A DNA stretch of 31,283 nucleotides from positions 1 through 31,283 of IMG/VR virus record IMGVR_UViG_3300047443_000139; one strand, given 5' to 3'. Shown in pieces: positions 2,910-31,283 of the stretch (within the stretch, counting starts at the first letter, position 1; each line of letters opens with the position of its first letter). This stretch comes from a virus. The notes below the pieces were generated by a model. It did no database searches and was not told the origin of the DNA. It worked only from the letters and a program-made list of their open reading frames with translations. The translations under genes and the position numbers were made by a program.

Positions 2910-3210
2910 TGTGGCGCGGACGGATGGCTGTTCTAGCCCTTTTCGTCCGGTACCAGCCCTGTGAGCTGGTCGGCAAGGTTTCAGTCAGTCAACCCCGGCT
3001 GTCCAGTCCTGTCACCGCCCGTGCCACACCCCCACAATCCGTTTTTCCGCTGGATACCACAATGACGAAAACACACGGGAAAATTGGCGCTCGAAATCCC
3101 TTTATCCCCTCCATTCCACCCGCTTGCCGGCTGCTGGAATGGTTACTCGTCGGCAGCACCACGGTTGCAGGCATGGTTGAAGCCGGCATGGATGGCGGCG
3201 AGAGCGGAAC
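2910..3210. other. Intergenic stretch after the Ner-like gene
   Basis: No supported gene. It contains a hairpin with 6-bp arms (ACCAGC 2952-2957 / GCTGGT 2965-2970) without a T tract, which could slow or end the rightward ner transcript. An open frame starting at 2906 runs antisense into the next gene and was rejected. Confidence 0.4.
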
Positions 3211-3453
3211 TCATATCAGCTCCCCCAGCACTTCTTCGCCAAGGCCACGTCCAAAGGCAACGGCCCTCGCGGCATCGATGTCGGTTGCAATGATCGAACC
3301 ATCGAACCAGCGGTCACCGTCCTCATCGTAGAACTTCGTGAGGAAGAGAACGCGGCGCGCTTTCAGGAGTTGGATATGTCTGCGGCTGAAGCCGAGGGTA
3401 TCGTCGAATACGATGCCATCCGCTACCGGCATATCCTTGGAAATAACCATCAT
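3211..3453 (-). CDS. Small conserved-looking protein of unknown function
   Basis: The 80-residue protein is compact and well balanced, with an alternating strand-rich N-terminal half (residues 1-50) and a C-terminal helix (IDAARAVAFGRGLGEEVLGE). It has no membrane segment or known motif. The start is ATG 3453, with GGAGG just upstream on the minus strand. An in-frame second ATG follows immediately. It is divergent from the paired membrane protein genes across an 86-bp gap and may be coregulated with them. I do not recognise a family. Small early proteins of this kind are common in phages as regulators or inhibitors of host functions. Confidence 0.6.
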   Translation of the reverse strand: MMVISKDMPVADGIVFDDTLGFSRRHIQLLKARRVLFLTKFYDEDGDRWFDGSIIATDIDAARAVAFGRGLGEEVLGELI

Positions 3454-3494
3454 GCTGCCTCCGCATTTTTGCTTGCTGGGGCACTGTCGTTATG

Positions 3495-3505
3495 GTGGTA
3501 TCCAC
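3495..3505. promoter_or_regulatory. Small dyad in a divergent promoter region
   Basis: GTGGTATCCAC has 4-bp perfect arms. It lies in the AT-rich gap between the minus-strand small gene and the first membrane paralogue, where divergent promoters should be. The short arms make this tentative. Confidence 0.25.
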
Positions 3506-3539
3506 TACTATTTTTGTGTTCGATTAGGTTGAAAAAGAA

Positions 3540-4358
3540 ATGTCCACAGCGCGTTATACCGCCAGCATTGTAGTCATCGGGCTGTTCGTTGTTTGGTCCC
3601 TGCTTTTGCTTGTCTATGGAGTTCCTCAGCCGGAACCGGAGGGCTACAAAGGGCTCAGCGGTCAATGGGCGACGGCGCTTTACAACTACCAAACCTTCAT
3701 AACCGGTTGCATGGCTGTAGGTGCGGCTCTCGGAACGATCTGGAAGATGGGACAAATTGACGAGAAGCAACGAGAGCGTCACGAGCAATTGGTGCGACTC
3801 AGTCGGCGACCAGATGCTTTGAAGGTAGAAAGAGCGCTCTACCCCACCTTTGGAAAGCTCCGAGTTTGTTACAAGCAGATGAGAGACTACAAGTTCGAGT
3901 GGGATAACCCCGATCCGGACAGCCTGCCTGATGAATTCTTTGCGGACGTTGCTCTGAAGATCCCTGAGATTAAGAAAACGGTGAAGGAAATTCACGGCTA
4001 TCTGCAGCCCCTGTGCGAAGGAGATACCGCTCTGCTGTTCGGTGGCCATCTTACTAGCGACCTGAAGATCTTGCTGGATGCGGTGGTGTCGCTCATGGGC
4101 AGCATTCGGTCTTACGAGGAGCGCGAACGGGAGAGGCAAAGTTGGGAACTGGCAGACTCTCGTGGCAGACGAACTGGCCTCGATCTTCCCATCTCTCAGG
4201 GTCTTGCCAATGAAAGATCGAAGTCGGCAATTCACCGGATGGAACTCATGCAGGATATCCCGATGCAGACCGCCCGAATTGATAGAGCCTTTGCGCCAGT
4301 CTTTAAGGGCTTCTGGAGTTTGATTGACCTCTATGAACTGACGATTGAAATTGCATAA
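3540..4358 (+). CDS. Two-helix membrane protein, paralogue 1 of a tandem pair
   Basis: The 272-residue protein has a membrane helix near residues 8-28, a short loop and a second helix near 52-70. A soluble, charged, mostly helical domain of about 200 residues follows, probably cytoplasmic. Around the second helix, GYKGLSGQWATALYNYQTFI followed by TG..AVGAA matches the next gene closely, so the two arose by duplication. The central part contains a charged, coiled-coil-prone stretch (EERERERQSWE). No catalytic motif is visible. It sits on the opposite strand to the transposition operon and has no place in the Mu plan, which marks it as accessory cargo. A lysogen-protection role is possible but is inference only. 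Confidence 0.8.
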   Translation: MSTARYTASIVVIGLFVVWSLLLLVYGVPQPEPEGYKGLSGQWATALYNYQTFITGCMAVGAALGTIWKMGQIDEKQRERHEQLVRLSRRPDALKVERALYPTFGKLRVCYKQMRDYKFEWDNPDPDSLPDEFFADVALKIPEIKKTVKEIHGYLQPLCEGDTALLFGGHLTSDLKILLDAVVSLMGSIRSYEERERERQSWELADSRGRRTGLDLPISQGLANERSKSAIHRMELMQDIPMQTARIDRAFAPVFKGFWSLIDLYELTIEIA

Positions 4359-4388
4359 AACGGTCGTACGGGCCGCAGGAGAGTAAAA

Positions 4389-5105
4389 ATGTTCCAACAG
4401 GGAACGAAGGCGGTGGCTGCTGCCGGGATTGTCATTTTGATAATGGCGTTGCTTCCACCTGCTATATTTGGACCCCATCCTCCGGCCTCGGGCGACTACA
4501 AGGATCTCGGCGACGGCTGGGCAACGATCATTTATAACTATCAGACCCTCATCACAGGTATGCTCGCTGTAGGCGCCGCGTTCGTCACGATCATGGTCTC
4601 CCAGCGCAGCCACAATGAGATTGTCGCGTTGACCCTGCGCGCGGACAAAATGAGGATCGAGCAAGCGCTTGTTCCTCACTACTACTTTCTTCGTTTTAAA
4701 CGACAAGAGTTGGCCGCGTTCCAAGACAACTTCGGCGGATTGCGTGGCAACACTCAGGCATTGAAAGATATGCTCATTTCGCGTGCGGGATGGCTTTATG
4801 AAGCTCTGGCGCGCGTGAAGGAAATAATGGGTTCGAAGGGCTTTGTTGCAGGGGAACCACTCTTCAACGGTGAAATGCTCTACGTGCTCGAAAAGGTTCG
4901 GGTTCAAGTCGATGGACTGATGATTGGCACAAAAGACCTTCGCGATGCTGGCCAGGGTGGACAGCTTGTCTGGCGAGATGATGAATTGGTCCGCTTTCCT
5001 AGCACGCTCATAATTCTTGAACGCGATCTGGAAATCTTGCTCAGCCAAATGCGTAGCCTCGCCGACGAATATAGGTTGAAGCTGAATCATGATCTCACGC
5101 CTTAG
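4389..5105 (+). CDS. Two-helix membrane protein, paralogue 2 of a tandem pair
   Basis: The 238-residue protein has helices near residues 8-27 and 53-72 and then a helical soluble domain. DYKDLGDGWATIIYNYQTLI followed by TGMLAVGAA aligns with paralogue 1 (YK-L, WAT, YNYQT, ITG, AVGAA conserved). The soluble domains have diverged strongly, so the pair may form a hetero-complex rather than being redundant. The gap between the genes is 30 bp and carries a GCAGGAGAG ribosome site, so they form an operon. The 3' end overlaps the end of the DUF3164 gene by 11 bp, tail to tail. Function unknown. Confidence 0.8.
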   Translation: MFQQGTKAVAAAGIVILIMALLPPAIFGPHPPASGDYKDLGDGWATIIYNYQTLITGMLAVGAAFVTIMVSQRSHNEIVALTLRADKMRIEQALVPHYYFLRFKRQELAAFQDNFGGLRGNTQALKDMLISRAGWLYEALARVKEIMGSKGFVAGEPLFNGEMLYVLEKVRVQVDGLMIGTKDLRDAGQGGQLVWRDDELVRFPSTLIILERDLEILLSQMRSLADEYRLKLNHDLTP

Positions 5106-5748
5106 CTAGGTCGATGGTGATCGCCTCAAAGCGATTTTCAATCGTCTGGCGCTTGTAGAATCTGACGTATTCTTTGCTGCCGGTAATCCGCATCGCATCG
5201 CGGATGGCCTGCATTGCGCTAGTCCATCGTTCATCGACGATATCCATGCGAAGGAGCATGAAGATCTCCGATCGGTTAACCTTGCCTTCCTTGTCGGTGT
5301 TGAAGGCGCGGGTAATGATTGCGCGGATCTCCGGGCGGCTGTCTGCCGACCACTCGTTCAAGCACTCATCGAGTAGCTTCTTAGCGATCTGCAGCTGCGG
5401 GCCGAAGTCGATGAAATCTGCGACCTGAACACTGACCTTCATCAGCCCATCGAACGTCTGATAGGTGCGATTGCCCTTCGCGCCGCCGATCTTCACGTTG
5501 TATTCCTGCGCCAGCAAGGCGTCGAAGTCGCCCAGGTCCGTCATTGTGTGACCTCGGAACCGCGCTATCTGTGCTGATAGTTCATCGGCAAAGCCAATGA
5601 TCTTACGGACAACCTCATCCTGCAGCTTGTCGGCTGCAGAGATCATCTCTACGGGGACGAGGTTGCCTTTGGCATCTGGCATATAGTTGTTGCCGTTGAC
5701 CAGGACGAGGCCGGCTTCTGGCCTATCTTCGAGAATGACTGCGTTCAT
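5095..5748 (-). CDS. DUF3164 family protein, early Mu-like gene
   Basis: The 217-residue soluble protein matches the DUF3164 family found in the early region of Mu-like phages: an N-terminal 'YMPDAKGNLVPVEMI' element, a central KGNRTYQTFDGLMKVSVQVA segment and a C-terminal helical part with DLAKA at the end. Its biochemical role is not known. It is sometimes labelled a sulfate transporter in databases, which nothing here supports. It is the last gene of the leftward transposition operon and follows the preceding gene after 4 bp. It ends in a tail-to-tail overlap with the membrane paralogue pair, so the two transcripts converge. Confidence 0.85.
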   Translation of the reverse strand: MNAVILEDRPEAGLVLVNGNNYMPDAKGNLVPVEMISAADKLQDEVVRKIIGFADELSAQIARFRGHTMTDLGDFDALLAQEYNVKIGGAKGNRTYQTFDGLMKVSVQVADFIDFGPQLQIAKKLLDECLNEWSADSRPEIRAIITRAFNTDKEGKVNRSEIFMLLRMDIVDERWTSAMQAIRDAMRITGSKEYVRFYKRQTIENRFEAITIDLAKA

Positions 5749-5752
5749 GGTT

Positions 5753-6034
5753 TCAGCCTTTGCTTTGCTGGAAGGTTTTCTTTACGGAGTGGGCAACCCG
5801 CAATCTGCGGGCGGCCAGCATGAGCGCCCGATAGGCGGCTTGCTCGTCGCGATCGGTACGTGCGTTTTCGACACGATTGCAGGCGGTGATCACGTCGACG
5901 ATGGCGTCGGTGATGGTGGGCAAGCCAAGCTCCGGGGTCGGCTCGATGCGCTGCTCTTTGACCAAGGCGAAGGTCAATTCCGTCGCGACATTGGCCGCAT
6001 CAGACATCCGGATGGTGAGAACGCCGGACTTCAT
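5753..6034 (-). CDS. Small early-operon protein, unknown
   Basis: The 93-residue, mostly helical protein starts MKSGVLTIRMSDAANVATEL. The start at 6034 is set by an ATGA overlap with the upstream gene, and upstream codons in this frame are antisense-like. It has no membrane segment or recognised motif. The C-terminus is basic (RRLRVAHSVKKTFQ) and might contact nucleic acid. It is one of three small genes between MuB and DUF3164, the position where Mu carries its non-essential early genes. Confidence 0.7.
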   Translation of the reverse strand: MKSGVLTIRMSDAANVATELTFALVKEQRIEPTPELGLPTITDAIVDVITACNRVENARTDRDEQAAYRALMLAARRLRVAHSVKKTFQQSKG

Positions 6035-6288
6035 GGCGTCTCTCCTGGTCGCTGATCGCGCTTTGCGAGAGCACGGGCGATGAAGGAAATAATGTTCCCA
6101 CCTTCTGCGCCGGCATTGATCGGCAGATCGCCGGTCAATCGCTTTTCCATCTGCTCGCAATCAGCAGCGACGTTGTCGAGCAGTTCGCAAATATCGGCGG
6201 TGATCAGCGCCGATATCGATCCGCCGACAAGGGCGTGGTTGAGCATCGCATCACGCAATGCTGCCAACTTCTGAGATGACCGGATCAT
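6031..6288 (-). CDS. Small early-operon protein, unknown
   Basis: The 85-residue protein starts MIRSSQKLAALRDAMLNHAL at 6288, overlapping the upstream stop as ATGA. Longer forms in this frame reach back over the MuB gene and are not credible. The centre contains a helix with ADICELLDNVAADCEQMEKR and the C-terminus is basic. I recognise no domain. Tight coupling to its neighbours argues for translation as part of the transposition operon. Confidence 0.7.
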   Translation of the reverse strand: MIRSSQKLAALRDAMLNHALVGGSISALITADICELLDNVAADCEQMEKRLTGDLPINAGAEGGNIISFIARALAKRDQRPGETP

Positions 6289-6572
6289 GTCTTCTTCCTC
6301 CCGAATTCCGGGCGGATGATCTTGTTGTCCTCTATCATCAGATTGCCCATCGCCTGCGTGGCAAGGTCGTTGATGACCGTGCGGCCGATGTCGCCGGCTT
6401 CCGTTAGCCGGAAGACGGACAACTCTTGCTCCTGGTTGTGGGCAAGGCGAGCGAGCGCCGACAGGAAATCGGTAAGCTCGGCAATCTGGTCGGGGTCGAG
6501 GCCAGCGCCAGTCGTAGACTTTACGCGCAGATCGTCGGCGATGGCGAACAGCTCGGTGGCGAGTGACATCAT
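6285..6572 (-). CDS. Small early-operon protein, unknown
   Basis: The 95-residue helical protein starts at tandem ATG codons (6572 and 6569) overlapping the MuB stop, with GGAGG 8 nt upstream. The N-terminal half (LATELFAIADDLRVK, LTDFLSALARLAHNQ) looks like an amphipathic helical hairpin, and the C-terminus is basic (KIIRPEFGRKKT). It contains no known motif. It is translationally coupled to MuB, so a role close to transposition or replication is plausible but undemonstrated. Confidence 0.7.
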   Translation of the reverse strand: MMSLATELFAIADDLRVKSTTGAGLDPDQIAELTDFLSALARLAHNQEQELSVFRLTEAGDIGRTVINDLATQAMGNLMIEDNKIIRPEFGRKKT

Positions 6573-7597
6573 GCCATGTCCTCCACGTCGCGCATCTTCC
6601 AGGCTGACTGGATATGCCGCAGCTCGACGACGCTGGAGCCTTCACCGATCGCCGCCATGATCGCCATGCGCATGGTCTTGTCGATCTGGCGAAACGCGCC
6701 ACCCTTCATGCCGACACCCGTCAGGAACTTGATGCAGGCCGGATCGGTGACGTTCCAGGCGGCGATGCAAGTTGCCAGATCTTCGTCATATGGCTGCGTG
6801 CGATGAAGGCGCTTACCAATTCGGCTTTTGAGCTGAGCGTAGGAACGGTCGCTCCGATGCTTGGTGAAGCGGCTGTAGACTTCCGAGTTGCCGACGATGG
6901 CAACGCCGCACTCGTAAACATCAACGAAGTAGCGCAACTGATTGAGCGCCGCATCGTCGAGGTGCTGACCTTCGTCAACGATCAGTAGCGTTCCGCCACC
7001 CGATCGGCGCAGTCTCATCCCGATAGCGCGTGCCAAGCGGGCGGGATTGTGTTCGCGCACCTCCAATTGCTCGGCCAGCTCGACGAGCATACCGTGGACG
7101 GTCTTGGTGCTTTCAGTGACCGTCGTGTGGAAGACGAGCGGGCGGGTGCGGGCAAACTGGCGGCATGTCGCAGTCTTGCCCATGCCCGCGCCGAGCGTGA
7201 TCATGACGAAGTCAGGAGCGACCTGTGCCCAGGTCAGCGTCTCGATGATCTCAATCGAACCGCGCAGGGGCATGTAGGATGGTGACTGCGGGATAGCGGC
7301 GGCGATGCCAGCGGTTTCCTGAAGAGCGTCGAGCCATTGCGCGACCTTCTCATTCAAGCTGTCCAGGCGACCCTCATATTTGCCGGAATAATACTGGCTG
7401 AAGGTCCCATCCGGCATGTCGATACGCCTAGCAACCTCGGCCTTGGTCCATCCGTAGGTCTTTCCCACCGCAATGATGCGATCGATGAGGTTAAGCCACA
7501 GATCGACATCAGCTCGCGATTTGTTCCCACCAACATCGGGAGTGCGCGACGGGCGATCCCAAGTTTTCAGCTGGCTTGTGCTATTATGCATGTTCAT
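6569..7597 (-). CDS. MuB-like transposition activator ATPase
   Basis: The 342-residue protein is a AAA+ ATPase of the MuB type, which forms filaments on target DNA, delivers it to the transposase and gives target immunity. A Cro-like helix-turn-helix occupies residues about 45-75 (TKAEVARRIDMPDGTFSQYY), as in Mu B. The Walker A loop is GAGMGKT (136-142) and Walker B is TLLIVDEGQ (203-211), with Asp208-Glu209. A conserved GNSEVY follows at 236-241, in the sensor-1 position. The start at 7597 has a GGAG upstream. The gap to the transposase gene is 23 bp. The protein appears intact at about the family length (Mu B is 312). Confidence 0.93.
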   Translation of the reverse strand: MNMHNSTSQLKTWDRPSRTPDVGGNKSRADVDLWLNLIDRIIAVGKTYGWTKAEVARRIDMPDGTFSQYYSGKYEGRLDSLNEKVAQWLDALQETAGIAAAIPQSPSYMPLRGSIEIIETLTWAQVAPDFVMITLGAGMGKTATCRQFARTRPLVFHTTVTESTKTVHGMLVELAEQLEVREHNPARLARAIGMRLRRSGGGTLLIVDEGQHLDDAALNQLRYFVDVYECGVAIVGNSEVYSRFTKHRSDRSYAQLKSRIGKRLHRTQPYDEDLATCIAAWNVTDPACIKFLTGVGMKGGAFRQIDKTMRMAIMAAIGEGSSVVELRHIQSAWKMRDVEDMA

Positions 7598-7620
7598 TTA
7601 AAATGGCTCCATGGATGCCC

Positions 7621-9702
7621 TTAGGGGCTGATTATTGGGCGGGCTTTCCCGCCCTTCTTTTTTCCGGAACCGTACTCATTACTTTTCGGCTCTACGTGGA
7701 CGCCGGACGCAGTACTCACCGGCGCATTTCCCGAAGGAAATTCAATGACCCCGTTCGCCTGGACGATGCCCAGGGCGCGGGAGAATAGGGTTTCAAAATG
7801 CTGCTCGCTGATGGCGTCAGCAGGCGCTTGGGTGGGTGCCAGGGCGAGATTGCCGCTGGTGACCAGGCGCGTGACCGTGGGCCGGACTTTCTCCGGCTCT
7901 GCTTTCGGCTTGTTGCCTCGGGAGTAAATTTCGCCGAGCTGCTGCGCCGTGAGCGTGGCATGGGCATCGGCGACCTGCCTGACCGCCTTGATATGGTTCT
8001 TCACGAGGCGAGCCTGCATGCGGGCGTCGTCGACGTTGTCGAAGCCGGTATTCTCGATGCACTTCGCCTCGCAGATGAGACGGCTTTTCAGGTCGTAGAC
8101 CTTGACTGGCTGATGCAGCGCGTCGGGATCGAAGCGGATAACAACCTTGTCGCCCGCGTATTGGTTGAGCGCGACATTCCAATAGCGGTTGCCCTGATAG
8201 TGGATCTCGCCGCTGCCCTTCTTCGTCTTGATGGCCTCGGACGCGAGCAGCCAGAGCGATGATTGCGCGGCAGTCGGCTGACGGACGATCGTCGCAGGTG
8301 CACGCATGCTCGCTTCGAAGGTCTGCAAAAAGCTTCGGCCACGGCAGTTTTCAGCGCGACGGCCTAGCTGCTCGTTATGGTCTTCGATCTGCTCGGCGAC
8401 GTGGCGGCGGAACTCCTCATACGGGATCGCCCGCGTCATGTAGTTTTCCGGCTTCGCGTCCGGCTTGTTGCCGGTGTATGCGCCGCTGCAGAAGGGATGC
8501 TTTGAGATCGCCTCGGCAAGATCGCGCCATGCGCGCTCGATCGGCTTCGACTGGCCGGCGTAAGGCCGGGTGAAGTGGACGTTGATGCCGAGCGTGGTGA
8601 GCAAGCCGCGAGGATCTTCCGGTTTCACTTTGAAGCGGAAACGCTGCACCGCATCGCCGCTGATCCATTTCGAAGCAAAGGCTTTGCCGTTGTCGATGTA
8701 CATGGTTTCGGGAATGCCATAGCGCTCGACCATGCCGCCGATCACCAGGCGCACCGCTTCCCAAGTTTCGGCTTCGGCCAGGCGGTGAGAGAGGATCAAG
8801 CCGGAATAGAGATCCTGAATACCGATGAGATAGAAGCGCGCCGGCTTTTTTGACCAGGGCACGTCAACGAACACGTCGATCTTGTGACCGTCCATGTTGA
8901 CGGCCTGCATGGCATGAAAGTGCGCGCGGCTGCGGCGCTGTGCCGGGACCAGTGTTCTCGCCTTGTCTTTGCCCTGCCGCTTCAGCAATGCAGCGGCCTT
9001 GCCAACATCGGCCTCCATCCGGCGACGGAGCGTGCGCTCGGAAGGAACTGGCTCCCATCCGTTGCGCTTCGCAGCTTTTGCCATACGGCGATAGCAGGCG
9101 GAAAATGCCGGCTTTTCGGGGCGCAGATAATCTGATGTGAGAACTTCCCATGCTTTGGGATGGCATTCTGCCAGATCGGCAACAGTGCCATCGTTTCCGG
9201 CAAAGTCGGGAGCGAGCGCCGCCAGATGGTCCTCGGCATCAAGTCCCTCGGTCATCTTCCGCCATTCGTAATAGGCTGACTTCTGGACACCCGCGTCAAA
9301 CGTCGCAATCGCAACGGCAGCATCGCGGCGGATCGAACGATCGCGCACCAGCTCTTCGACGCGACGAAGCACCTTTAGCCGCGTTTCACAGATGGCTTTA
9401 TGGTCCTTCGAGAGCTTGTTGAAGCGTGCCCAAAGGGCATCTTTCCGTGCCTTCACCGCCTTCGTTTCCGCATCGGTCGTGTCAGCGGTGATGAAGGTGA
9501 GCCGATCCCTGGCCTCTTTCGGCAAGAGCGAAACATGATACTTGAAGCCGCCGCCACCTTCCCGCCCATCCGCCTTGCAGAAGAGCGCAGGGTTCGCCCG
9601 CCATCCCTCGGCCTTTGCCTTCTTGGCAAAGCCGCTGAGAGAGGCAGGGAGGCCCGGGAGGGAGAGCGCCAGGAGTTCGTTGAAGGTCAGGAACTCGGTC
9701 AT
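7621..9702 (-). CDS. MuA-like DDE transposase
   Basis: The 693-residue transposase catalyses strand cleavage and transfer at the phage ends. The N-terminus (about 1-70, with LPGLPASLSGFAKKAKAEGW) is the Mu-type winged-helix domain. Further DNA-binding helices follow. The catalytic RNase-H-like core has Asp271 (VNMDGHKIDVF), Asp337 (PETMYIDNGKAF) and Glu389 (YAGQSKPIERAW), very close to Mu's 269/336/392. A beta-barrel (about 490-545, GNRYWN, VVIRFDPD) and a C-terminal tail for MuB contact follow. No disruption is seen, so the element may remain mobile. The final 15 codons contain a plus-strand terminator. Confidence 0.96.
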   Translation of the reverse strand: MTEFLTFNELLALSLPGLPASLSGFAKKAKAEGWRANPALFCKADGREGGGGFKYHVSLLPKEARDRLTFITADTTDAETKAVKARKDALWARFNKLSKDHKAICETRLKVLRRVEELVRDRSIRRDAAVAIATFDAGVQKSAYYEWRKMTEGLDAEDHLAALAPDFAGNDGTVADLAECHPKAWEVLTSDYLRPEKPAFSACYRRMAKAAKRNGWEPVPSERTLRRRMEADVGKAAALLKRQGKDKARTLVPAQRRSRAHFHAMQAVNMDGHKIDVFVDVPWSKKPARFYLIGIQDLYSGLILSHRLAEAETWEAVRLVIGGMVERYGIPETMYIDNGKAFASKWISGDAVQRFRFKVKPEDPRGLLTTLGINVHFTRPYAGQSKPIERAWRDLAEAISKHPFCSGAYTGNKPDAKPENYMTRAIPYEEFRRHVAEQIEDHNEQLGRRAENCRGRSFLQTFEASMRAPATIVRQPTAAQSSLWLLASEAIKTKKGSGEIHYQGNRYWNVALNQYAGDKVVIRFDPDALHQPVKVYDLKSRLICEAKCIENTGFDNVDDARMQARLVKNHIKAVRQVADAHATLTAQQLGEIYSRGNKPKAEPEKVRPTVTRLVTSGNLALAPTQAPADAISEQHFETLFSRALGIVQANGVIEFPSGNAPVSTASGVHVEPKSNEYGSGKKKGGKARPIISP
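7637..7663 (+). terminator. Strong rightward intrinsic terminator inside the 3' end of the transposase gene
   Basis: GGGCGGG (7637-7643), loop CTTT, CCCGCCC (7648-7654), then TTCTTTTTT. Only plus-strand transcripts would carry the U tract. No plus-strand gene ends here, so it would stop antisense transcription entering the transposase gene from the left. Confidence 0.7.
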
Positions 9703-9704
9703 GC

Positions 9705-10163
9705 CTATGCGCCTCTCTTCGCAATGGTGACGGGGCGGGCTGACTGGCGGCGGATTTCCGCCTCGATGCGCTTGCGCTCTTGCCGAAGCCGGGCGATTTC
9801 GGCGAAGCGTGCTTCGTCACCAATGAGGACGGTGACGCCCTGGATGGAGGCGACCTCATCCCAAAGCCAAAGGGCTCCCGTGGCGTGCACGAAGGCAGTG
9901 AAGCGGATTAGCGTGACATCGTGGCCGGTCTTACTCTCGGCTGTGTAGGCATCGAGCGCGGCCTTGCTGACGTTCGCCAGGCCGAGATATTGCGCCATGC
10001 GGGCAACGATCGTGGGGCGATCGTGGGGGCACTCGCGAATGGCCCGAGCCATCGCGCGTTTGATCTTGGTGCGATAGTGGTCGATGTCGATGGATTGGAC
10101 CGGCATGCGAACCGGGAAAATCTCCTGGCTCCAGAAGTCGAGCTGTGAAGGATCGGTCTTCAT
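9705..10163 (-). CDS. Early-operon protein of unknown function upstream of the transposase
   Basis: The 152-residue protein starts MKTDPSQLDFWSQEIFPVRM. ATG 10163 overlaps the ParB-like stop as ATGA, and a longer frame would be antisense-like. Residues 30-70 look like a helical DNA-binding-type segment (ARAIRECPHDRPTIVARMAQ, then YLGLANVSKAALDAYTAES, which is reminiscent of a helix-turn-helix). The C-terminus is a long charged helix (about 120-145, RFAEIARLRQERKRIEAEIR), probably coiled coil. It lies directly before the transposase, 2 bp from its start. It is likely a DNA-associated transposition accessory protein, on context only. Confidence 0.75.
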   Translation of the reverse strand: MKTDPSQLDFWSQEIFPVRMPVQSIDIDHYRTKIKRAMARAIRECPHDRPTIVARMAQYLGLANVSKAALDAYTAESKTGHDVTLIRFTAFVHATGALWLWDEVASIQGVTVLIGDEARFAEIARLRQERKRIEAEIRRQSARPVTIAKRGA

Positions 10164-11017
10164 CGAGCCTTCTCCATCGCTGCCTTGACCTGATTGCGCA
10201 GTTCGTCGGCAACGCCGGCCTCGACCAGCATGTCGAAAACGAACAGCACGCGCGTCATGCGGTCGGCTGACTTCCATGCGCGATCGAGATCAAGTCGAAC
10301 GGCCCGTTGCTTGTCGGCCTCGGAAACTTCTTTCGGCGGCTCTTTCGCGGCCTCCAGAACCTTCGCGATGTCAGGTTCTTTCTTGAGCGCGGCTGCAATC
10401 TGCTGCTGCCGCTTTGGGCCTTCCTTGGCTAGTTTCAGAAGAAGAGACTGGTTGTCGGCGGCGGGGGTGCCGCGAAGCTGCGAACGCAGCGTGGGGTGGA
10501 GGTTTTGGGCGATGGCGTTCAGGCGAAAGTATGCACGCTTGGAGAGGCCCATGCGATCGGCGACATGCTGAGAAAAGCCGCCGCTCTCTGACTCCGTCTC
10601 GAACAATAGTGCCAAGTTGGCACTATTTCCGGGGCGACCCGCTTCAATCTTACCGTGCTTGTTTTCCCAGACATCGCGATAGGACTGCACGAAAATGGCC
10701 CGGTCCATCACGGACAGGTCGTTGCGGAAGAGGTTTTCGGAGATCTCGATGAGCTGAGCTTCGTCCTTGTCGCCCTCGACGATCATGGCCTCAATCTGCG
10801 GCTCTTGATTTAGCTCGAAGGCGCGGAGGCGATGAGCGCCGGCAACCAATGTCCAATTGCCGGCCTTTGATGCGGGCGTAGAACGGACTGTGATCGGGTT
10901 GATGAGGCCGTGCTCGACGATGTTCTGAGCGATCGCAAGCGCATGCTCTTCCTCAACAGCGCGCAGGCGCGCCGGAACCACGATCTGATTGATAGGAATA
11001 AGTTTGAACTCGGCCAT
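10160..11017 (-). CDS. ParB/Spo0J-like N-terminal domain protein
   Basis: The 285-residue protein begins MAEFKLIPINQIVVPARLR. It has the ParB box-II-like GAHRLRAFEL and a SENLFRNDLSVMDRA segment that corresponds to the ParB ENLQR motif. A helix-turn-helix-like segment follows (FSQHVADRMGLSKRAYFRL, about 145-165), then a charged C-terminal region. I chose ATG 11017 because GGAGG precedes it. It overlaps the upstream stop by one base. ParB-fold proteins bind CTP and specific DNA, but no parA partner is present. In a transposable phage it more likely acts in regulation, end recognition or host modulation than in partition. This role is inferred. Confidence 0.85.
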   Translation of the reverse strand: MAEFKLIPINQIVVPARLRAVEEEHALAIAQNIVEHGLINPITVRSTPASKAGNWTLVAGAHRLRAFELNQEPQIEAMIVEGDKDEAQLIEISENLFRNDLSVMDRAIFVQSYRDVWENKHGKIEAGRPGNSANLALLFETESESGGFSQHVADRMGLSKRAYFRLNAIAQNLHPTLRSQLRGTPAADNQSLLLKLAKEGPKRQQQIAAALKKEPDIAKVLEAAKEPPKEVSEADKQRAVRLDLDRAWKSADRMTRVLFVFDMLVEAGVADELRNQVKAAMEKAR

Positions 11018-11373
11018 CACGCGGCCTCCGCAAGTTTCGCGAGCTCGGCCATGAACAGGTCGCCGGCGCGAGAGGCTACGCGGTGGTACATTCGGTCAAA
11101 GACGCCATCAGCGCGTCGGGCTTCAATGACGCGAACGGCCATCAACATCGTCGAACGTGCGATGCCGAGCATCGCGACGATGCGTCGACGCGGAACGTTG
11201 AATTCGTCGTGGAAGATGTAGAGGGCGACCTGTCGCGCAAGCGCCGCGTCCAACATGTGGTTGGGCGGGCTGATGAGGTAGCGCAACGGCAGGTGCGAGA
11301 AATGCTGCTGCGAGGCCTTGTAGCAGCAGGCCAGCATGACCGTAAGGCGTTCCGGTTCGGAGTAGGGGTTCAT
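11017..11373 (-). CDS. DnaA domain IV-like helix-turn-helix protein
   Basis: The 118-residue protein has a central segment (about 48-85) resembling the DNA-binding domain of the replication initiator DnaA: RQVALYIFHDEFNVPRRRIV, then AMLGIARSTMLMAVRVIEAR, in place of DnaA's 'RQVAMYL...IG..FGGRDHTTV..A..KI'. The ATPase domains of DnaA are absent. It is the first gene of the leftward operon, with GGGAGC upstream of ATG 11373. It may bind DnaA-box-like sites to control the early promoter or phage replication. The gap to the divergent GemA gene is only 17 bp. Confidence 0.75.
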   Translation of the reverse strand: MNPYSEPERLTVMLACCYKASQQHFSHLPLRYLISPPNHMLDAALARQVALYIFHDEFNVPRRRIVAMLGIARSTMLMAVRVIEARRADGVFDRMYHRVASRAGDLFMAELAKLAEAA

Positions 11374-11390
11374 TAGAAAGCTCCCATCTG

Positions 11391-12029
11391 ATGGGCGACA
11401 GCGAGAGCTGCGGCAAGCAACTCGGCATTTCCGACGACGCCGATAGGCGCGCGCTCTACGAACGCGTGACCGGCAAAACCCGCCTCACTTTGATGCAGCC
11501 TCCCGAACAAGATGCCGTGGTAACTGAACTGCGTCGTCTTGGTTTCAAGCCGGCCGAGCGCCGCGCGAATGGTCGGCAGAAGCTTACCGGAAAATATGCC
11601 AAGAAGCTCCAGGCGCTCTGGATTGCCGCCTGGAACCTCGGTGTCGCCCGCGAACGCGACGACAAGGCCATGCTGGCTTTCGTGAAACGCCAGACCGGTA
11701 TCGACCATACCCGTTTCCTAGTCTATCCGGACGATGCCGCCAAGGCGATCGAAGGGCTGAAGGCGTGGCTCGCCAGAGAGGCTGGCGTCGGCTTCGGCAA
11801 TACCAACGGCTACGAATGGCTGGCCAGCGACGGCGCAAAGATCGCCTGGGCGCAGTGGAAGATCCTGCATCCATCCGCAGGCCTCGTGGTCCGCAAAGGG
11901 TTTGACGAGGAGGCGGCGCGGCTGGCAGGGATCAGCATCGTATGGCTGGCAGAGCTGAAGCCGTCGCATTGGCAAGCGGTCATGAACGCCCTTGGCGAAC
12001 GCGTCCGCGCAGGAAAGGCTGGTGCGTGA
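11391..12029 (+). CDS. gemA: GemA (Mu gp16, DUF1018) regulatory protein
   Basis: The 212-residue protein matches GemA/gp16 of Mu-like phages: KQLGISDD followed by RRALYERVTGK, then VVTELRRLGFKP and the diagnostic LQALWIAAWNLGVARERDD, with AMLAFVKRQTGIDHTRFL. In Mu, GemA modulates host gene expression and DNA supercoiling. The start is the ATG at 11391, without a clear ribosome site, and the N-terminus is a few residues shorter than in typical relatives. A one-base frame difference upstream would restore an ATARAA-like segment, so a small N-terminal lesion is possible. It is the first rightward gene, in an operon with the next three. Confidence 0.85.
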   Translation: MGDSESCGKQLGISDDADRRALYERVTGKTRLTLMQPPEQDAVVTELRRLGFKPAERRANGRQKLTGKYAKKLQALWIAAWNLGVARERDDKAMLAFVKRQTGIDHTRFLVYPDDAAKAIEGLKAWLAREAGVGFGNTNGYEWLASDGAKIAWAQWKILHPSAGLVVRKGFDEEAARLAGISIVWLAELKPSHWQAVMNALGERVRAGKAGA

Positions 12030-14980: not shown

Positions 14981-15312
14981 ATTTCGATCTTTCATTGTTG
15001 ACGGCCATGATCGCGCTCGCGCTCTCGGCGCTCAATCTCGTTGCCGCCATTCGGAACCTCCTCTCGGAGGGCGAAAAGAAGTTGAACGAGCGGCTCACCA
15101 TAGCGGAAACCACGCTCATCAAACACGATCGTCGCATCCAGAAAGTTGAGAACGATCTCGAACACATGCCGACCGGGGCAGCCATACATTCGCTGGAGCT
15201 GATGATGGAAAGGGTGCTGGGTCGCCTCGACACCATGGACGAGCGGCTTAAGCCGATCGCAGCCACAAACCTGAGACTGCAGGATTACCTTTTGGAGCAC
15301 GCGGAGAAATGA
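14977..15312 (+). CDS. DUF2730 family protein (Mu gp25-like)
   Basis: The 111-residue protein has an N-terminal membrane helix (about 7-26) followed by a long coiled coil (EGEKKLNERLTIAETTLIKH through LEHMPTGAAIHSLELMMERV). This is the layout of Mu gp25/DUF2730. It overlaps both neighbours by 4 bp (ATGA). The family's function is not established. Its constant position between lysis and packaging genes suggests a lysis or assembly accessory role. Confidence 0.85.
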   Translation: MNFDLSLLTAMIALALSALNLVAAIRNLLSEGEKKLNERLTIAETTLIKHDRRIQKVENDLEHMPTGAAIHSLELMMERVLGRLDTMDERLKPIAATNLRLQDYLLEHAEK

Positions 15313-15608
15313 GCATGGCCACACTGATGGAAGAAGAAGCTCGCCTGGCAATCCTGAAGGAATTGGCCAAAGAGGACAACAACGCGATCTCTTCGGCGAG
15401 AATGCAGATCTATCTGCTGACGCAGCTGTTGATCGACAAGCCGCGCGAATGGGTGGAGGCACAGTACGCTTTCCTGAAGGACATGGGAGCGGTCACCATC
15501 GTCCAGGCCGACACGGTCAAAATCGCTCGCCTTGCCAAGCGAGGAGAGCTGCACCTTCAAAACCTGATCAGCATTCCGGGTGTGCTGTGCCCTACGGCTA
15601 GAGGTTGA
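15309..15608 (+). CDS. Mu gp26-like winged-helix protein
   Basis: The 99-residue protein begins with MSMATLMEEEARLAILKELA and resembles the Mu gp26 (VpaChn25_0724) family: a winged-helix-like fold with DNNAISSARMQIYLL as the helical part and WVEAQYAFLKDMGAVTIVQA as recognition helix and wing, ending in a conserved-looking ARLAKRGELH. It has a 4-bp overlap with gp25-like. It probably binds DNA during packaging or regulation, but this is untested for the family as far as I know. Confidence 0.8.
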   Translation: MSMATLMEEEARLAILKELAKEDNNAISSARMQIYLLTQLLIDKPREWVEAQYAFLKDMGAVTIVQADTVKIARLAKRGELHLQNLISIPGVLCPTARG

Positions 15609-15611
15609 ACA

Positions 15612-16250
15612 ATGGCGGCGAAGGGACGCGGACGGCTCACCGCCATCGACTTGCTACCGGAAGAATGCGAGCCGGTGATCGCCTGGGCGGCGCAGGAGCT
15701 TGCCGATCGGAGCCGGACGCAGCTCGAAATCTATGGCGAGTTCAAAGAAAAGCTAATTGCGCTCCAGGGCGAGCTTGGCCTCGGCTTTGATATTCCATCA
15801 TTCTCCGCATTCAACCGCCACGCCATTCGCCTGTCACAGATGACGCGGCGGCTTGAGCAGACGCGCGAGATCGCCGCGACGATCTCGGAACGTATGGACG
15901 CAGCCGGTTCCGACGATCTGACCCTGATTGCCGCTGAGGCCATCAAAACCCTCATCTTCGAATTGCTTCAGGCGGGCGGTGATGCCGGCATCAGCCCGAA
16001 GGGCGCGATGGAACTCGCGAATGCCTTGCGTGCCGCCTCTGCAGCGCAGGCGTCATCGTCCAGTCGTCGCTTGAAGCTGGAAGCCGAAGAGAAGGCCCGC
16101 AGGATCGAAGTCGATATGAAGGACAAGGCCGAGAGGGCTCTCGATGTCCTGTCCAATGAGCCTGGCATCTCGAAGGAAGCGATCGCCCGCGCCCGCCACG
16201 AGTTCCTCGGCGTTCGTCCGAAAAAGAAGGACGAAGGCAGCAATGGTTGA
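15612..16250 (+). CDS. Terminase small subunit-like (DUF3486, Mu gp27)
   Basis: The 212-residue protein matches DUF3486. An N-terminal helix-turn-helix region (AAKGRGRLTAIDLLPEECEP to FDIPSFSAFNRHAIRLSQMT) is followed by long charged helices. In Mu this gene lies directly before the terminase large subunit and is thought to be the DNA-recognising small subunit. It is intact. Its stop overlaps the next gene by 8 bp. With the large subunit broken downstream, it has no partner for packaging. Confidence 0.85.
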   Translation: MAAKGRGRLTAIDLLPEECEPVIAWAAQELADRSRTQLEIYGEFKEKLIALQGELGLGFDIPSFSAFNRHAIRLSQMTRRLEQTREIAATISERMDAAGSDDLTLIAAEAIKTLIFELLQAGGDAGISPKGAMELANALRAASAAQASSSSRRLKLEAEEKARRIEVDMKDKAERALDVLSNEPGISKEAIARARHEFLGVRPKKKDEGSNG

Positions 16251-17832
16251 ACTGCCCAAGGGTGAATGGAAAGACCCGCCTGTCCTCGCCCGCGATCCCA
16301 AAGAGCTAATCGACGAGCTGCCGCGTGGTGGCGACATTCCGGACGAACTGGACCCGCTGGCTGAAGGCGTCCTCATGGCGCATCAGGCCGAGTGGATCGC
16401 GGACGAAAGCGCCCTGAAGGTCTGCGCCAAGGGTCGCCGTACCGGGATCACCTTCGCCGAGGCGCTGGACTGCACCTTGATTGCAGCGGCAAAGCGTTCG
16501 GCCGGTGGCCAGAACGTCTTTTATATTCCCGACACAAAGCCGAAGGGTCGGGAGTTCATCGGCTATTGCGCCCACTTCGCCAAGACTGTCGCCAAGGAAA
16601 TGCTGACGATCGAAGATGGCATATTCTTTGACCAAAAGGCAGACGGCACCACACAGGCGATATCCAGCTACATTAATGGCCATACCTGCCCGCGTGCCCT
16701 GACGTGGCGAACGCAGCGTTGGTTTGCATTCGATCGGACCGATGGCGAAACCCTGCTGCTGCGCGACAACGCCGGAAACCTGCCGCTCACGCCCCACAAG
16801 TTCATCATTCACCGCTCAAAGGCAAAGTCCGGCCTGACCGTCCGCTCTAGTATTGCTCGCGTGGCCGTGTGGTGCTGGATGTTCAAAAGCTTCACGGTGA
16901 AGGATTGGGCGATCTTCTGCCAGAACTACGGCCAGCCGATCCGTATTGGCAAGTATGGGCGTGGTGCGACCGAAGCGGAAAAGGATGTCCTGTGGCGCGC
17001 GGTCAGCGGCATAGCCGGTGATTGCGCCGCCATCATGCCGCGCGAGATGCTCGTCGAGTTTCATGAGGTCGCCTCAAAAGGCACCTCGACCGATATGTAT
17101 GAGCGTCGAGCCGACTGGCTGGACCGGCAGGTCTCCAAGCTCGTCCTCGGGCAAACGACTACGACGGACGCAGTTGCTGGTGGCCACGCCGTCTCCCAGG
17201 AGCATCGGCTGGTCCAAGAGGATATCGAACGCTCAGATGCGCTCGACGGCTCCGACACGCTGAACATGCAGCTCGTTCCCAACATGATCGCGTTCAACTT
17301 CGGGCCTCAGGATCGGTACCCGACCATCCACATCGGCCGTCCGGACGAAGTGCCGCTAGATATTTTCGCGACCGCTTTCGACAAGCTTGCCAAACATGGT
17401 CTGACCGCCGAGGCGAGTTTCATGCGTGATCGGCTCGGCATTCCCGCACCAAAACCGGACGCAGAGCTCGTCGGCGGCAGAATGGTTACGCCATCCCAGC
17501 AAGACCAGCCCACCGCGCGCCAGAACAAGAAGGCGCTGCAAGCGATGTTCGATCGGCTTTTTGACGGCACCCACGCGCGCCAGACGCCAGACGAGATCGT
17601 CGATTCCCTGACCGAACGCCTGGAGCAAGATGCAGCCGGCGCGATGAGCGGCATGATCGACGAGGTTAAAGCCGTGCTAATGTCTGCGACCGATTTGCGC
17701 GATGCGGCCGAGCGTCTGGCCGCTCTCGACCTATCGGCCGACGAGCTGACGGAAGCCATGGCCAGGGGCATGGCTCTCGCGCATCTCGCAGGGCAGGCAT
17801 CATTGCTGGACGACATCGCGGGCCGCTCATGA
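16243..17832 (+). CDS. In-frame fusion of truncated terminase large subunit and truncated portal (gp28::gp29)
   Basis: The 529-residue frame joins two genes. Residues 1 to about 143 are a Mu gp28-like terminase N-terminus, with the Walker A-like KGRRTGITFAEA (63-74) and NVFYIPDTKPKGREFIGY. They stop at QAISSY, just where the family continues to the Walker B region. From about residue 148 the sequence is a DUF935 portal (gp29) that has lost its N-terminus: PRALTWRTQRWFAFDRTDGE, then FKSFTVKDWAIFCQNYGQPI and the normal portal C-terminus. Both families are normally about 500 residues or more, so roughly 1.5 kb is missing. ATPase completion, nuclease and part of the portal are lost. The protein cannot package DNA. 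Confidence 0.88.
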   Translation: MVELPKGEWKDPPVLARDPKELIDELPRGGDIPDELDPLAEGVLMAHQAEWIADESALKVCAKGRRTGITFAEALDCTLIAAAKRSAGGQNVFYIPDTKPKGREFIGYCAHFAKTVAKEMLTIEDGIFFDQKADGTTQAISSYINGHTCPRALTWRTQRWFAFDRTDGETLLLRDNAGNLPLTPHKFIIHRSKAKSGLTVRSSIARVAVWCWMFKSFTVKDWAIFCQNYGQPIRIGKYGRGATEAEKDVLWRAVSGIAGDCAAIMPREMLVEFHEVASKGTSTDMYERRADWLDRQVSKLVLGQTTTTDAVAGGHAVSQEHRLVQEDIERSDALDGSDTLNMQLVPNMIAFNFGPQDRYPTIHIGRPDEVPLDIFATAFDKLAKHGLTAEASFMRDRLGIPAPKPDAELVGGRMVTPSQQDQPTARQNKKALQAMFDRLFDGTHARQTPDEIVDSLTERLEQDAAGAMSGMIDEVKAVLMSATDLRDAAERLAALDLSADELTEAMARGMALAHLAGQASLLDDIAGRS

Positions 17833-19013
17833 ATAGAGGCCCACAGACGCGCAAGGACACGTCTGCTCGCCCGATGATCGCGAAACTATTCAAAAGCGCG
17901 TCAGCGGCCTTTGAAAGTGCTTCGAAATCGATGGTGGTTGGCGTCGCCCTGATGGCTTCGACGCTCAGCGCCGTCTCTTTGCCGTTTGATGAGGCGATCG
18001 ACTTTCTGAAGCAGAAAGTCTCGACGACCACGACAAGCTTCCGAGACGTCTGGGATGGCGCTCATAGCAAGATGTTCATGGTCGCGGGTGCCAATAAACA
18101 GGCGATCGTCGACGACTTCAAGTCCGAGATCCTGAAGGCCCTTGAAAAGGGAACCACGCTCGAGGAATTCCGCGCCGGCTTCGACGACATCGTGAAGCGG
18201 CATGGCTGGTCCTATAATGGGGATCGCGGCTGGCGCACCAGGACGATTTTTGAAACCAACCTGCGCACCGCTTATGCGGCCGGCCGTTATGCGCAGATGA
18301 CCGAGCCGGACACGCTCGCGACGTTCCCATTTTGGCAATATCACCATTCCGGCGCTGTGCATCCTCGCCTTCAACATAAGGCGTGGGATGGCACGATCTT
18401 GCGCGCGGACGATCCGTTCTGGTCCGTGGCGTACCCGCCGAATGGCTACGGCTGCGGTTGCTTCGTCACTCCTGTCTCGCGTGGCGGACTTCGGCGCATG
18501 GGTAAGGCCGCGCCCGATAGAACTCCCGATCTCGACCAGCTCGGCACAGATCAGCCGCTCGGCGTGGATCCGTCATTCGCCTACAATCCGGGTAAAAGCT
18601 GGCTCGATCAGACCTCCCCTGGTCCGAAGGCCGTCACCGCGACGGAAGCGAACATCGCCGCCTTCGTTCAATCGTCATTGAAGGGCAAGTGGCCCGACGG
18701 AAGCTGGACGCCGGTCGGCATCACGAACAGCAAGAATACCGCTGCGCTCGATCTTGCGGCCGGTACCGAGTTGCGGTTGCCGGCCTCAACGATCCGCGCC
18801 AATGCCGAGGCTGATGTCACGCCCGACGCATATGCCGTCATTCCGAAACAACTCCTGAAGAAAGGCCGCGTGAAGCGGGACAAGAAGACCGGTGCAGTCT
18901 CGCTGGTCGGAGAAGTCAATGGCGATCGCTGGACGGCTGATCTCGATTTCGTCGACAGCGGCAAGCGTCGTCAGCTTCACATCAAGAGCTTGAGACGGGA
19001 GCTGACGCAATGA
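17829..19013 (+). CDS. Phage minor head protein (Mu gpF, SPP1 gp7 family)
   Basis: The 394-residue protein carries the minor head (Phage_Mu_F) signature FETNLRTAYAAGRYAQM, HHSGAVHPRLQHKAWDGTIL and PPNGYGCGCFVTP. In Mu it associates with the portal and is ejected or stabilises the connector. ATG 17829 overlaps the preceding stop as ATGA. A second in-frame Met at residue 16 may be the true start, as the first 15 residues look non-conserved. It appears full length, although its partners (portal and capsid) are damaged or absent. Confidence 0.9.
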   Translation: MNRGPQTRKDTSARPMIAKLFKSASAAFESASKSMVVGVALMASTLSAVSLPFDEAIDFLKQKVSTTTTSFRDVWDGAHSKMFMVAGANKQAIVDDFKSEILKALEKGTTLEEFRAGFDDIVKRHGWSYNGDRGWRTRTIFETNLRTAYAAGRYAQMTEPDTLATFPFWQYHHSGAVHPRLQHKAWDGTILRADDPFWSVAYPPNGYGCGCFVTPVSRGGLRRMGKAAPDRTPDLDQLGTDQPLGVDPSFAYNPGKSWLDQTSPGPKAVTATEANIAAFVQSSLKGKWPDGSWTPVGITNSKNTAALDLAAGTELRLPASTIRANAEADVTPDAYAVIPKQLLKKGRVKRDKKTGAVSLVGEVNGDRWTADLDFVDSGKRRQLHIKSLRRELTQ

Positions 19014-19444
19014 GCGGCGCGTCGATCTCCGTTACCATCAGCGATGCCGGCGTCCGTCGCGGCTTCGAACAGCTCGCGCGCTTAATGACGAACACGCGGC
19101 CGGTCATGGCCGCGATCGGCACGGAACTCGTTGCCTCGACCCACCTGCGCTTCGTTACACAGACAGATCCGGATGGCCAGGCATGGCAGGCATTGAACTC
19201 GGAATATGCGGAAGGAAAGCGCAATACGCGCATCCTGACGGAGAGTGGTCGTCTCCGGGACAGCATCAATTCCCGACCGAGCAATGACCAGGTGCTCGTC
19301 GGCACGAATGTCATTTATGCGGCCGTCCACCAGTTCGGCGCTGTGATCCAGCCGAGGTCGGCGTCACACCTCTATTTTCGCGTGGGCGGTAATCTCATTG
19401 TTGCGAACAAGGTGACGCGCGCGGCCTCGGCCTGGACGCCATGA
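19010..19444 (+). CDS. Virion morphogenesis protein (Mu gpG-like), C-terminally truncated
   Basis: The 144-residue protein matches gpG/tail-completion proteins up to about residue 130: ASTHLRFVTQTDPDGQAWQA, LTESGRLRDSI, and the conserved YAAVHQFGAVI. The family usually ends with a proline-arginine 'PARP(F/Y)LG' motif and a short helix. Here the frame instead runs RAASAWTP and stops, so the C-terminus has been replaced at a deletion junction near 19400-19440. The protein may be non-functional. What follows is not the expected protease/scaffold and capsid pair but a tail gene fragment. Confidence 0.8.
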   Translation: MSGASISVTISDAGVRRGFEQLARLMTNTRPVMAAIGTELVASTHLRFVTQTDPDGQAWQALNSEYAEGKRNTRILTESGRLRDSINSRPSNDQVLVGTNVIYAAVHQFGAVIQPRSASHLYFRVGGNLIVANKVTRAASAWTP

Positions 19445-19961: not shown

Positions 19962-21455
19962 ATGTCCATGGTTTTCGATGAAATCCCGTCAGACTGGCTT
20001 GAGCCGTCGACGCTGATTGAGATCAAGGCGAACTATTCGCAGACCGGCGTCCTGCCCTATCCCGACAAGGCGCTGATCATCGGCCATAAGCTCGCCACCG
20101 GCACGCTTGCGCCGGGTAACTTCGTCCAGGTCACGCGCCCCGAGGAAGCGATCGCCTATTTCGGCCTCGGCTCGATCGGCGCTGAGCAGGTCGCAAGCTT
20201 CCGCAAGGCCAACAAGACCACGCCACTCTATGTGACGGCAATGGCGGATGCGGGCGGCGCAACGAAGGCGACCGGTACCCAGACCTTCACCGGCACGGTG
20301 GCTGTTGCGACGGTTCTGCGCTTCAAGATCGGTGGCCGTGACATCCGCTTCACCGCGCTTTCGACCGACACGGCCGCGACCATGGCAACGAAGCTTGCTG
20401 CAGCCGTCAACGCCGACACGGCTTGCGTGGTCACCGCCTCTGCCGCGCTTGGCGTCATCACCTATACCGCCCGAAACGGCGGCGAAGTGGGTAACGACAT
20501 CAACATCCGGGTCAACACAAAGGCGCAGCCGATCCCGAGCGGTCTGACGATCGCGACCGTCGCCATGGCGGGCGGTACCGGCAACCCGGTACTGCAGACA
20601 GCTCTCGACGCGATCGAGAACACCTGGTTCACGAAGATCACGCATCCGTGGTCCGACGCAACCAACATGTCGGCCTTCGCGGAATGGCTGCGTGTTCGCT
20701 ATCTCGCGACCTCGAAGCTCGATGCCCATGGGTTTGTCGCCAAGGCTGGCACCTTCGGCGACCTCGGCACGTTCGGGGCATTGACGAACAACGCCTTCCT
20801 CACGACGCTCGGTCTCAAGAATTCGCCGACCAGCTCCTGGAACATTGCGGCATCTGCCTGCGCACTTGCCGCGTTCCATCTGAACAACGATCCGGCTCGC
20901 CAGCTCCGTTCGCTGGTGCTGCCAGGTGTCGAAGCTCCGGACCCGGCCGATCAGTTTACCGAAGAGGAAAAGGATCTGCTGCTTCGGACGGGCATTTCGA
21001 CGTTCGACCATCTCTCCGACGGTTCGACCAGCATCTCGCGCATGATCACCACGTACAAGGTTACCTCGCTCGGGGTGGCCGATCGCGCCTGGCTGGACAT
21101 CATGGTGCCCGCCACCATGAGCCGCATTCGCTACGATTGGGCATCCTACGTTTCCTTGCTCTATCCACGCGCGAAGCTTGCCGACGATGACAGTGCGGCG
21201 GCGCTGACGTCCAACTATGACGACGGCGGCGTGGTGAATACCGCTGTCGTCACGCCATCGCGGATGAAGGCCTCCTGGGCGGCACGCTGCAAGCTTTACG
21301 GCGACAAGGTGTGGATCCAGAACGTCAGCTCCACCGTCAAGCAGAGCACCTTCGCCATCTCCGACGATGACAAGAACCGGCTCGAAGGCCGGCCGATCGT
21401 CGACATCGTCGGCAACCTCATGGTCTTCGCGCAGTCGCTCGAATTCCTGGCCTAA
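19962..21455 (+). CDS. Contractile tail sheath protein (Mu gpL)
   Basis: The 497-residue protein is the same size as Mu gpL (495). Typical features are the N-terminal IPSDWLEPSTLIEIKANYSQ, a variable outer domain with ETW-like repeats of Ala/Thr (about 100-200), and the conserved C-terminal domain (MVPATMSRIRYDWASYV, IVDIVGNLMVFAQSLEF) that builds the sheath core. It polymerises around the tube and contracts on infection. AAGGAG lies 13 nt before ATG 19962. Intact. Confidence 0.95.
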   Translation: MSMVFDEIPSDWLEPSTLIEIKANYSQTGVLPYPDKALIIGHKLATGTLAPGNFVQVTRPEEAIAYFGLGSIGAEQVASFRKANKTTPLYVTAMADAGGATKATGTQTFTGTVAVATVLRFKIGGRDIRFTALSTDTAATMATKLAAAVNADTACVVTASAALGVITYTARNGGEVGNDINIRVNTKAQPIPSGLTIATVAMAGGTGNPVLQTALDAIENTWFTKITHPWSDATNMSAFAEWLRVRYLATSKLDAHGFVAKAGTFGDLGTFGALTNNAFLTTLGLKNSPTSSWNIAASACALAAFHLNNDPARQLRSLVLPGVEAPDPADQFTEEEKDLLLRTGISTFDHLSDGSTSISRMITTYKVTSLGVADRAWLDIMVPATMSRIRYDWASYVSLLYPRAKLADDDSAAALTSNYDDGGVVNTAVVTPSRMKASWAARCKLYGDKVWIQNVSSTVKQSTFAISDDDKNRLEGRPIVDIVGNLMVFAQSLEFLA

Positions 21456-27908: not shown

Positions 27909-28979
27909 ATGTTTTTCGATCTCGCTATTGTCTATGACCCCAATAAGCGCCTGTGCGATCTCGCGCTCGGCGACGATGGCGATCTGCTGATCGATGAAAC
28001 GCCGATCACCCCCATGCTTTTGTCGATCGGCCTCGATCGGCGCGCAGCTCCAGACGATCCGCTTCCGGACGGTCGCAGCCAGTTCCTCGCTCCCGTCAGC
28101 TTTTCCGAACGTCGTGGTTGCCCCGGCGATGCCCTCGATCTGCCAGCCGGCTCGACCGTTACGCTCATCTGCACCGGGACAACTTGGGCATTGGCTGGCA
28201 TTGCGTATTCGGAAGTTCCGAGTGTCGGCGATGTGACGATTTACGTCAGGACTGATGGCTCAGATAGCAATGATGGCTCTTCGAACGACAGCGGCCACGC
28301 GCTGGCAACGATCGGTGAAGCGCTGAACCGTGCAAAGAAGGCGGGATCCAGCAACACTGTCACGATCCAGCTCGGCGTTGCAGGAACATACGCCGAGCGC
28401 ATTGTAACTGCGAATATTGCGGCAACCATTGTGGTCAAAGGCGACACGGCCAATCAGGCCAACTACAATATTGCCCCACCGGGGACGATCTTTAGCGTGT
28501 TGGATATAAACAACGCCAACGTCTCGTTTCAGGGCATCCGGTTAGTCCCATCCGGAACGGTGACGCATGAACTCTACGCGTCCAGCAATGCGACGGTCTC
28601 AATCAGCAACGTCACTTTGTCGGCAGCGGGAACGATCTCCGGAGGCCTCATTACTGCAGCCACCGGCGCCACGATTACGATCAGTGCTGGATGCAATATT
28701 TTGGCCGGTGCAGGCTCGGCGCTCAACGTCAACGGCGGCACAATAGCGATCAATGAAAACGTAGCCGTAGGTACTCCAACCTACACTGCTGCTTTCGTGG
28801 CTGCGGCAAATGGCGGAGCGGTCTTACGTGCCTCTACCGGGCCGACATTCAGCGGCTCTGCAACTGGCACCAGATATGCGGCCAGCATGAATTCGATCAT
28901 CAGCACGAATGGCGGCGGCGCGAACTATTTCCCCGGCACCGTCGCCGGGAGCGTCTCTACCGGAGGGCAATACGCATGA
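27909..28979 (+). CDS. In-frame fusion of gp46-like baseplate N-terminus to a tail-fibre beta-helix
   Basis: Residues 1 to about 77 of 356 match the Mu gp46 family: DGDLLIDETPITPMLLSIGL, DRRAAPDDPLPDG, RRGCPGDALD. The family then continues with a C-terminal half that is missing here. From LPAGSTVTLICTGTTWALAG onward the protein is fibre-like, with a right-handed beta-helix (TIYVRTDGSDSNDGSSNDSG, then repeating T/V/I strands) and a typical fibre end (GGGANYFPGTVAGS). The join near 28140 removes the rest of gp46, the baseplate J-like gp47, gp48 and the fibre N-terminus. A fibre without its tail-attachment domain is unlikely to work normally. Confidence 0.85.
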   Translation: MFFDLAIVYDPNKRLCDLALGDDGDLLIDETPITPMLLSIGLDRRAAPDDPLPDGRSQFLAPVSFSERRGCPGDALDLPAGSTVTLICTGTTWALAGIAYSEVPSVGDVTIYVRTDGSDSNDGSSNDSGHALATIGEALNRAKKAGSSNTVTIQLGVAGTYAERIVTANIAATIVVKGDTANQANYNIAPPGTIFSVLDINNANVSFQGIRLVPSGTVTHELYASSNATVSISNVTLSAAGTISGGLITAATGATITISAGCNILAGAGSALNVNGGTIAINENVAVGTPTYTAAFVAAANGGAVLRASTGPTFSGSATGTRYAASMNSIISTNGGGANYFPGTVAGSVSTGGQYA

Positions 28980-31231: not shown

Positions 31232-31283
31232 AGTCGCGTCCGGCTACACAGGAACACAGGCCTCTATGGCCATGATCGTAATT

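Follow-up and report, generated by a model that had tools for sequence, protein, structure and literature searches.

An in-frame terminase-portal fusion as an ordinary deletion product in a Mu-like phage record that is defective or misassembled

Does a single open reading frame that begins as a large terminase and ends as a portal protein represent a new kind of packaging protein, or is it what remains after DNA was lost between two genes? We have analyzed this question for a 31,283-nt stretch of DNA, called the window here, which comprises positions 1 to 31,283 of the IMG/VR virus record IMGVR_UViG_3300047443_000139. An earlier note on this DNA, made from the sequence alone, had described the 16243-17832 ORF as an in-frame deletion chimera of a Mu gp28-like and a Mu gp29-like gene, and profile matches of the two halves (phrog_2 and PF06074, respectively) bear this out. 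The fusion is a real feature of the record, and it is an ordinary deletion fusion in a Mu-like phage that is either defective or misassembled.

The two halves of the fused ORF

The fused ORF and its immediate neighbours are as follows.

15612..16250, + strand: small terminase subunit, Mu gp27-like, intact (PF11985, E 9e-34; phrog_426)
16243-17832, + strand: fused ORF, 529 aa
16243..16674, + strand: N-terminal part of a gp28-like large terminase, forming residues 1-144 of the fused ORF (phrog_2, identity to L015)
16675..17832, + strand: residues 145-529 of the fused ORF, Mu gp29-like portal minus its first 146 residues (PF06074)
17829..19013, + strand: gpF-like minor head protein, full length (PF04233)

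The whole window was aligned to three relatives. Its nearest known counterparts are L015 (IMG/VR 3300010367_000108) and the Mu-like prophages L038 (Rhizobium sp. ASV8) and L044 (P38BS-XIX). These have the same gp27-TerL-portal-gpF-gpG order and tail genes, but unlike the window they encode a full-length large terminase (TerL) of 555 aa and, as a separate protein, a portal of 531-537 aa. Phage Mu has the order gp27-gp28-gp29-gpF, as in the window. Its gp28 (terminase) and gp29 (portal) belong to the same families as the fused halves (PHROG 2, PHROG 113 and PF06074), but are two separate, intact proteins.

Residues 36-116 of the fused ORF match the terminase large subunit family phrog_2, with an E-value of 3.5e-7 when the first 143 aa are used alone. 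The terminase part shares 97% amino acid identity with the intact 555-aa TerL of L015, and the TerL of the Ochrobactrum phage POA1180 is 86% identical to residues 4-144. A search of PDB sequences with TerL gave no meaningful match. The portal part is assigned by the alignment of residues 145-400 to positions 81-336 of the 336-position Portal_Mu profile (PF06074, DUF935; E 3e-72), by a match to phrog_113, and by 91-92% identity to the intact portals of the Rhizobium prophages L038 and L044. The solved portal structure PDB 8rka_A aligns with the fused ORF from residue 149 onward.

Neither half is a complete protein of its kind. The Walker A-like loop that the earlier note saw as retained is present as KGRRTG at residues 63-68; every TerL row in the alignment conserves it, but it does not have the form of a canonical Walker A. 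The ORF retains this N-terminal loop of a Mu-type large terminase, while the Walker B motif IDEAAF (at residue 172 of the intact TerL) and everything else past residue 144, including the nuclease, are absent. The Portal_Mu domain lacks its start, along with the 146 N-terminal residues of the portal. The earlier expectation that such a chimera must disable packaging is right. The proposed coupling of the fused ORF to both neighbours also has its counterpart in the DNA, as start and stop overlaps are present with gp27, which ends at 16250, and with gpF, which starts at 17829.

The deletion between terminase and portal

The two halves are joined between codon 144 (16672-16674) and codon 145 (16675-16677), that is at 16674/16675, within the 16663-16690 interval proposed beforehand.

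16672..16677, + strand: deletion junction 1, TACAT/TAATGG, with microhomology of about 1-3 nt at most

The left parent (L015) reads AGCTACAT followed by CATCCGG and the right parent (L038) reads TATCACAACGGCCATAC; the window itself reads AGCTACATTAATGGCCATAC. The sequence between the two halves is exactly 1673 nt long in L015, L038 and L044. It encodes TerL residues 145-555, with Walker B, the remainder of the ATPase and the nuclease, and portal residues 1-146, the N-terminal core. Among 52 related loci, a set in which some records are represented by more than one overlapping copy, all have 1625-1715 nt of extra sequence between the halves and a separate, intact TerL and portal; none has the fused state. 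Extra sequence had thus been rightly predicted for intact relatives, although at about 1.5 kb its size was put too low.

No other record shares the fusion: among 279 phage records with a match to the fused protein, none covers at least 80% of it in one place, and a search for terminase-portal fusions in one collection of papers found none. The exact junction sequences of deletion 1, of deletion 2 (described below) and of one inversion end are absent from the viral contigs searched, a search in which records near the window were possibly missed. Within the record, no repeat of 18 nt or longer joins the two sides of a junction.

The open frame across the join can be a matter of chance. TerL and portal genes overlap in the relatives and lie in different frames, so joining them requires the right deletion length. 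When breakpoints were placed at random in L044, 33% of the joins were in frame and open. The in-frame outcome of junction 1 is thus expected by chance in one join out of three.

Further deletions and an inversion

The earlier note described the fusion correctly, but left out that the record carries two more large deletions as well as an inversion.

19010..19444, + strand: gpG/neck protein, shortened by deletion 2 (PF05069 positions 3-110 of 148)
19404..19416, + strand: deletion junction 2, about 3.9 kb lost, with up to 8 nt of microhomology (AAGGTGAC)
19962..21455, + strand: tail sheath, intact (PF04984; 97% to the L015 record; dN/dS 0.06)
27909..28979, + strand: product of deletion 3, in which about 77 aa from the N-terminus of gp46 run on in frame into the C-terminal third of a tail fibre
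3177..11414, no strand assigned: inverted early block, 8.2 kb (alignment with the three relatives)
6569-7597, - strand: transposase B, within the inverted block
7621-9702, - strand: transposase A, within the inverted block
10160-11020, - strand: ParB-like gene, within the inverted block

Deletion 2, placed at 19409-19416 by the alignment, has taken the last part of gpG, the Mu-like protease/scaffold, the major capsid gene gpT, a gp35-like and further small genes, gp36 and the first part of gp37. The frame is lost at this join: gpG has 168 aa in relatives, and that of the window ends with about ten foreign, out-of-frame residues. A search of the record for gpT was empty, which is weak evidence taken alone, but the alignment with the three relatives shows the gap directly; L015 and L038 have the protease and gpT region that the window lacks. 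Deletion 3, near 28138, has cost the record about 3.9 kb, with Baseplate_J, gp48 and the greater part of the fibre. The resulting product matches GP46 at positions 3-42 of 101 only, and the remainder shows 35% to the G3 fibre C-terminus. Baseplate_J and gp48 are present in L038 and L044, unlike in the window.

The ends of the inversion are reciprocal, with 3 nt (TTG/CAA) at the breakpoints and no bases lost. In the three compared prophages the transposase lies on the strand of the structural genes, and in 15 further records on that of the portal; the block is opposite in orientation to all of these, and the inversion occurs in none of the 18. The inversion also provides a new start for a GemA-like gene.

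Two observations concern the right end of the record. At 31199-31248 there are tandem AAAATTCCGGAA repeats, a 50-nt stretch that is 98% identical to its counterpart in L038; they are possible end sites for the transposase. An FkbM-type methyltransferase gene (29524-30396, - strand), with a GC content below that of the phage, adjoins the tail-fibre region and is a possible cargo gene.

The nature of the record

The DDE_2, MuB_C, Tail_tube, gp45 and GpP-like domains identify a Mu-like transposable genome, albeit one with its A/B block inverted. With at least three large deletions, two of which (1 and 3) are in-frame fusions, and one inversion, the record cannot build a particle. It is not a functional tailed phage: searches for gpT and for Baseplate_J, both intact in relatives, were empty here.

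Could the phage have been losing its head module on the way to a tailocin, a bacteriocin made of a tail without a head, and could the fused ORF be a leftover of this? The head genes have been struck twice, and the sheath, tube, tape measure, gp43, gp44 and gp45 frames are full and open, as such a route would predict. Baseplate_J, gp48 and the N-terminal part of the fibre are also deleted, so a contractile tail should not assemble. The tailocin reading, which we consider very improbable, was rejected on account of the missing baseplate genes. Since both capsid and Baseplate_J genes are absent, the record is neither phage nor tailocin.

Defective prophages offer another comparison. Incomplete prophages preferentially lose genes for replication, packaging and release and are enriched in transposases (PMC7744054). 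The window resembles such cryptic prophages in having lost packaging and particle genes while keeping a transposase. The window differs from them in that its retained genes show neither stop codons nor relaxed selection. The dN/dS ratios against the nearest relatives are 0.02 for the terminase part and 0.05 for the portal part, and no stop codons occur among those retained genes that could be compared. There is thus no sign of relaxed selection after the fusion, a result equally expected from a very recent event and from an artefact. This lack of decay indicates that the damage is either recent or technical, the breaks being very young or absent from the natural DNA.

Natural or technical origin of the breaks

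The relatedness of the window changes along its length. The nearest relative is L015 to the left of junction 1, L038/L044 to its right, and L015 again past junction 2. Since the left part is nearest to one phage and the right part to others, junction 1 could, to judge from these affinities, join two phages instead of marking a simple deletion within one. Another switch lies within 15001-15617: as far as the beginning of gp27 the window is nearest to L038/L044, and thereafter to L015, with no deletion. Such a switch near 15617 is usual for mosaic phages.

These switches at junctions 1 and 2 are also what would be seen if amplification chimeras or misassembly had joined distant fragments, or fragments of different phages, while the natural phage is intact. 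This explanation overlaps with our preferred one, and we regard it as a serious contender, though not as the favoured account. At least three deletions and an inversion within 31 kb, searched joins that recur in no other record, and retained genes without point decay would all fit it. The joins share about 1-8 nt, which overlaps the range of chimeras formed in multiple displacement amplification (MDA), where complementarity of 2-21 nt is reported for over 70% of junctions, and where inversions with deletions make up over 85% (PMC1855051). The inversion in the window, in contrast to these MDA-typical inversions with intervening deletions, is reciprocal to the base, without loss. The switch near 15617 also speaks against a technical cause, as it shows relatedness changing without a deletion, as in natural mosaics. 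Short-read assemblers need shared words much longer than 8 nt to make a misjoin, and those at the joins are too short for this. On balance we lean modestly towards breaks in natural DNA over breaks that arose in amplification or assembly.

Our preferred reading of the whole, to which we assign a probability of roughly 0.85, is that the fused ORF is a deletion by-product in a defective Mu-like phage or prophage, a remnant without packaging or portal function. An illegitimate deletion of 1.67 kb in a Mu-like phage, putatively of Rhizobiales, would have cut into both TerL and portal and joined two reading frames by chance, probably at short microhomologies. The same phage or prophage would also have lost its genes for capsid and baseplate and undergone the inversion of the transposase block, and these breaks would be of recent origin.

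Function of the hybrid

If translated, the fused protein would probably be unstable. AlphaFold predicts it with a pLDDT of 46 and a pTM of 0.23 (35 aligned sequences), as against 64 and 0.56 for an intact portal (20 aligned sequences), and the deleted portal residues cover part of the most confident predicted core, roughly residues 80-146. Both models are modest, and the poorer predicted structure of the fusion may serve as supporting evidence only. As the record has no capsid gene, there is nothing in it for a portal to join. The hybrid very probably has no function.

A functional fusion, with the ATP-loop domain of a terminase placed on a portal body for packaging or for interference against related phages, would be in keeping with the open frame, the retained overlaps with both neighbours and the good conservation of both halves. 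It occurs in no relative, has lost Walker B, the nuclease and the portal core, sits in a record without a capsid gene and has a poor predicted fold; we hold it to be most unlikely. The variant in which a natural Mu-derived element, with its ends and transposase, is spread by a helper whose packaging the hybrid would impede as a dominant-negative interferer seems more far-fetched still. The view that an active hybrid is probable or noteworthy is not upheld, given that a third of joins keep the frame, that capsid, protease and baseplate genes are gone and the transposase block is inverted, that no other record has the fusion, and that the predicted structure is poor.

Chance can produce an in-frame fusion as striking as this one in a single phage record, here with other large breaks and a second in-frame fusion alongside it. 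A database label of 'portal-terminase fusion' would mislead in this case, and the record merits a flag as defective or possibly misassembled.
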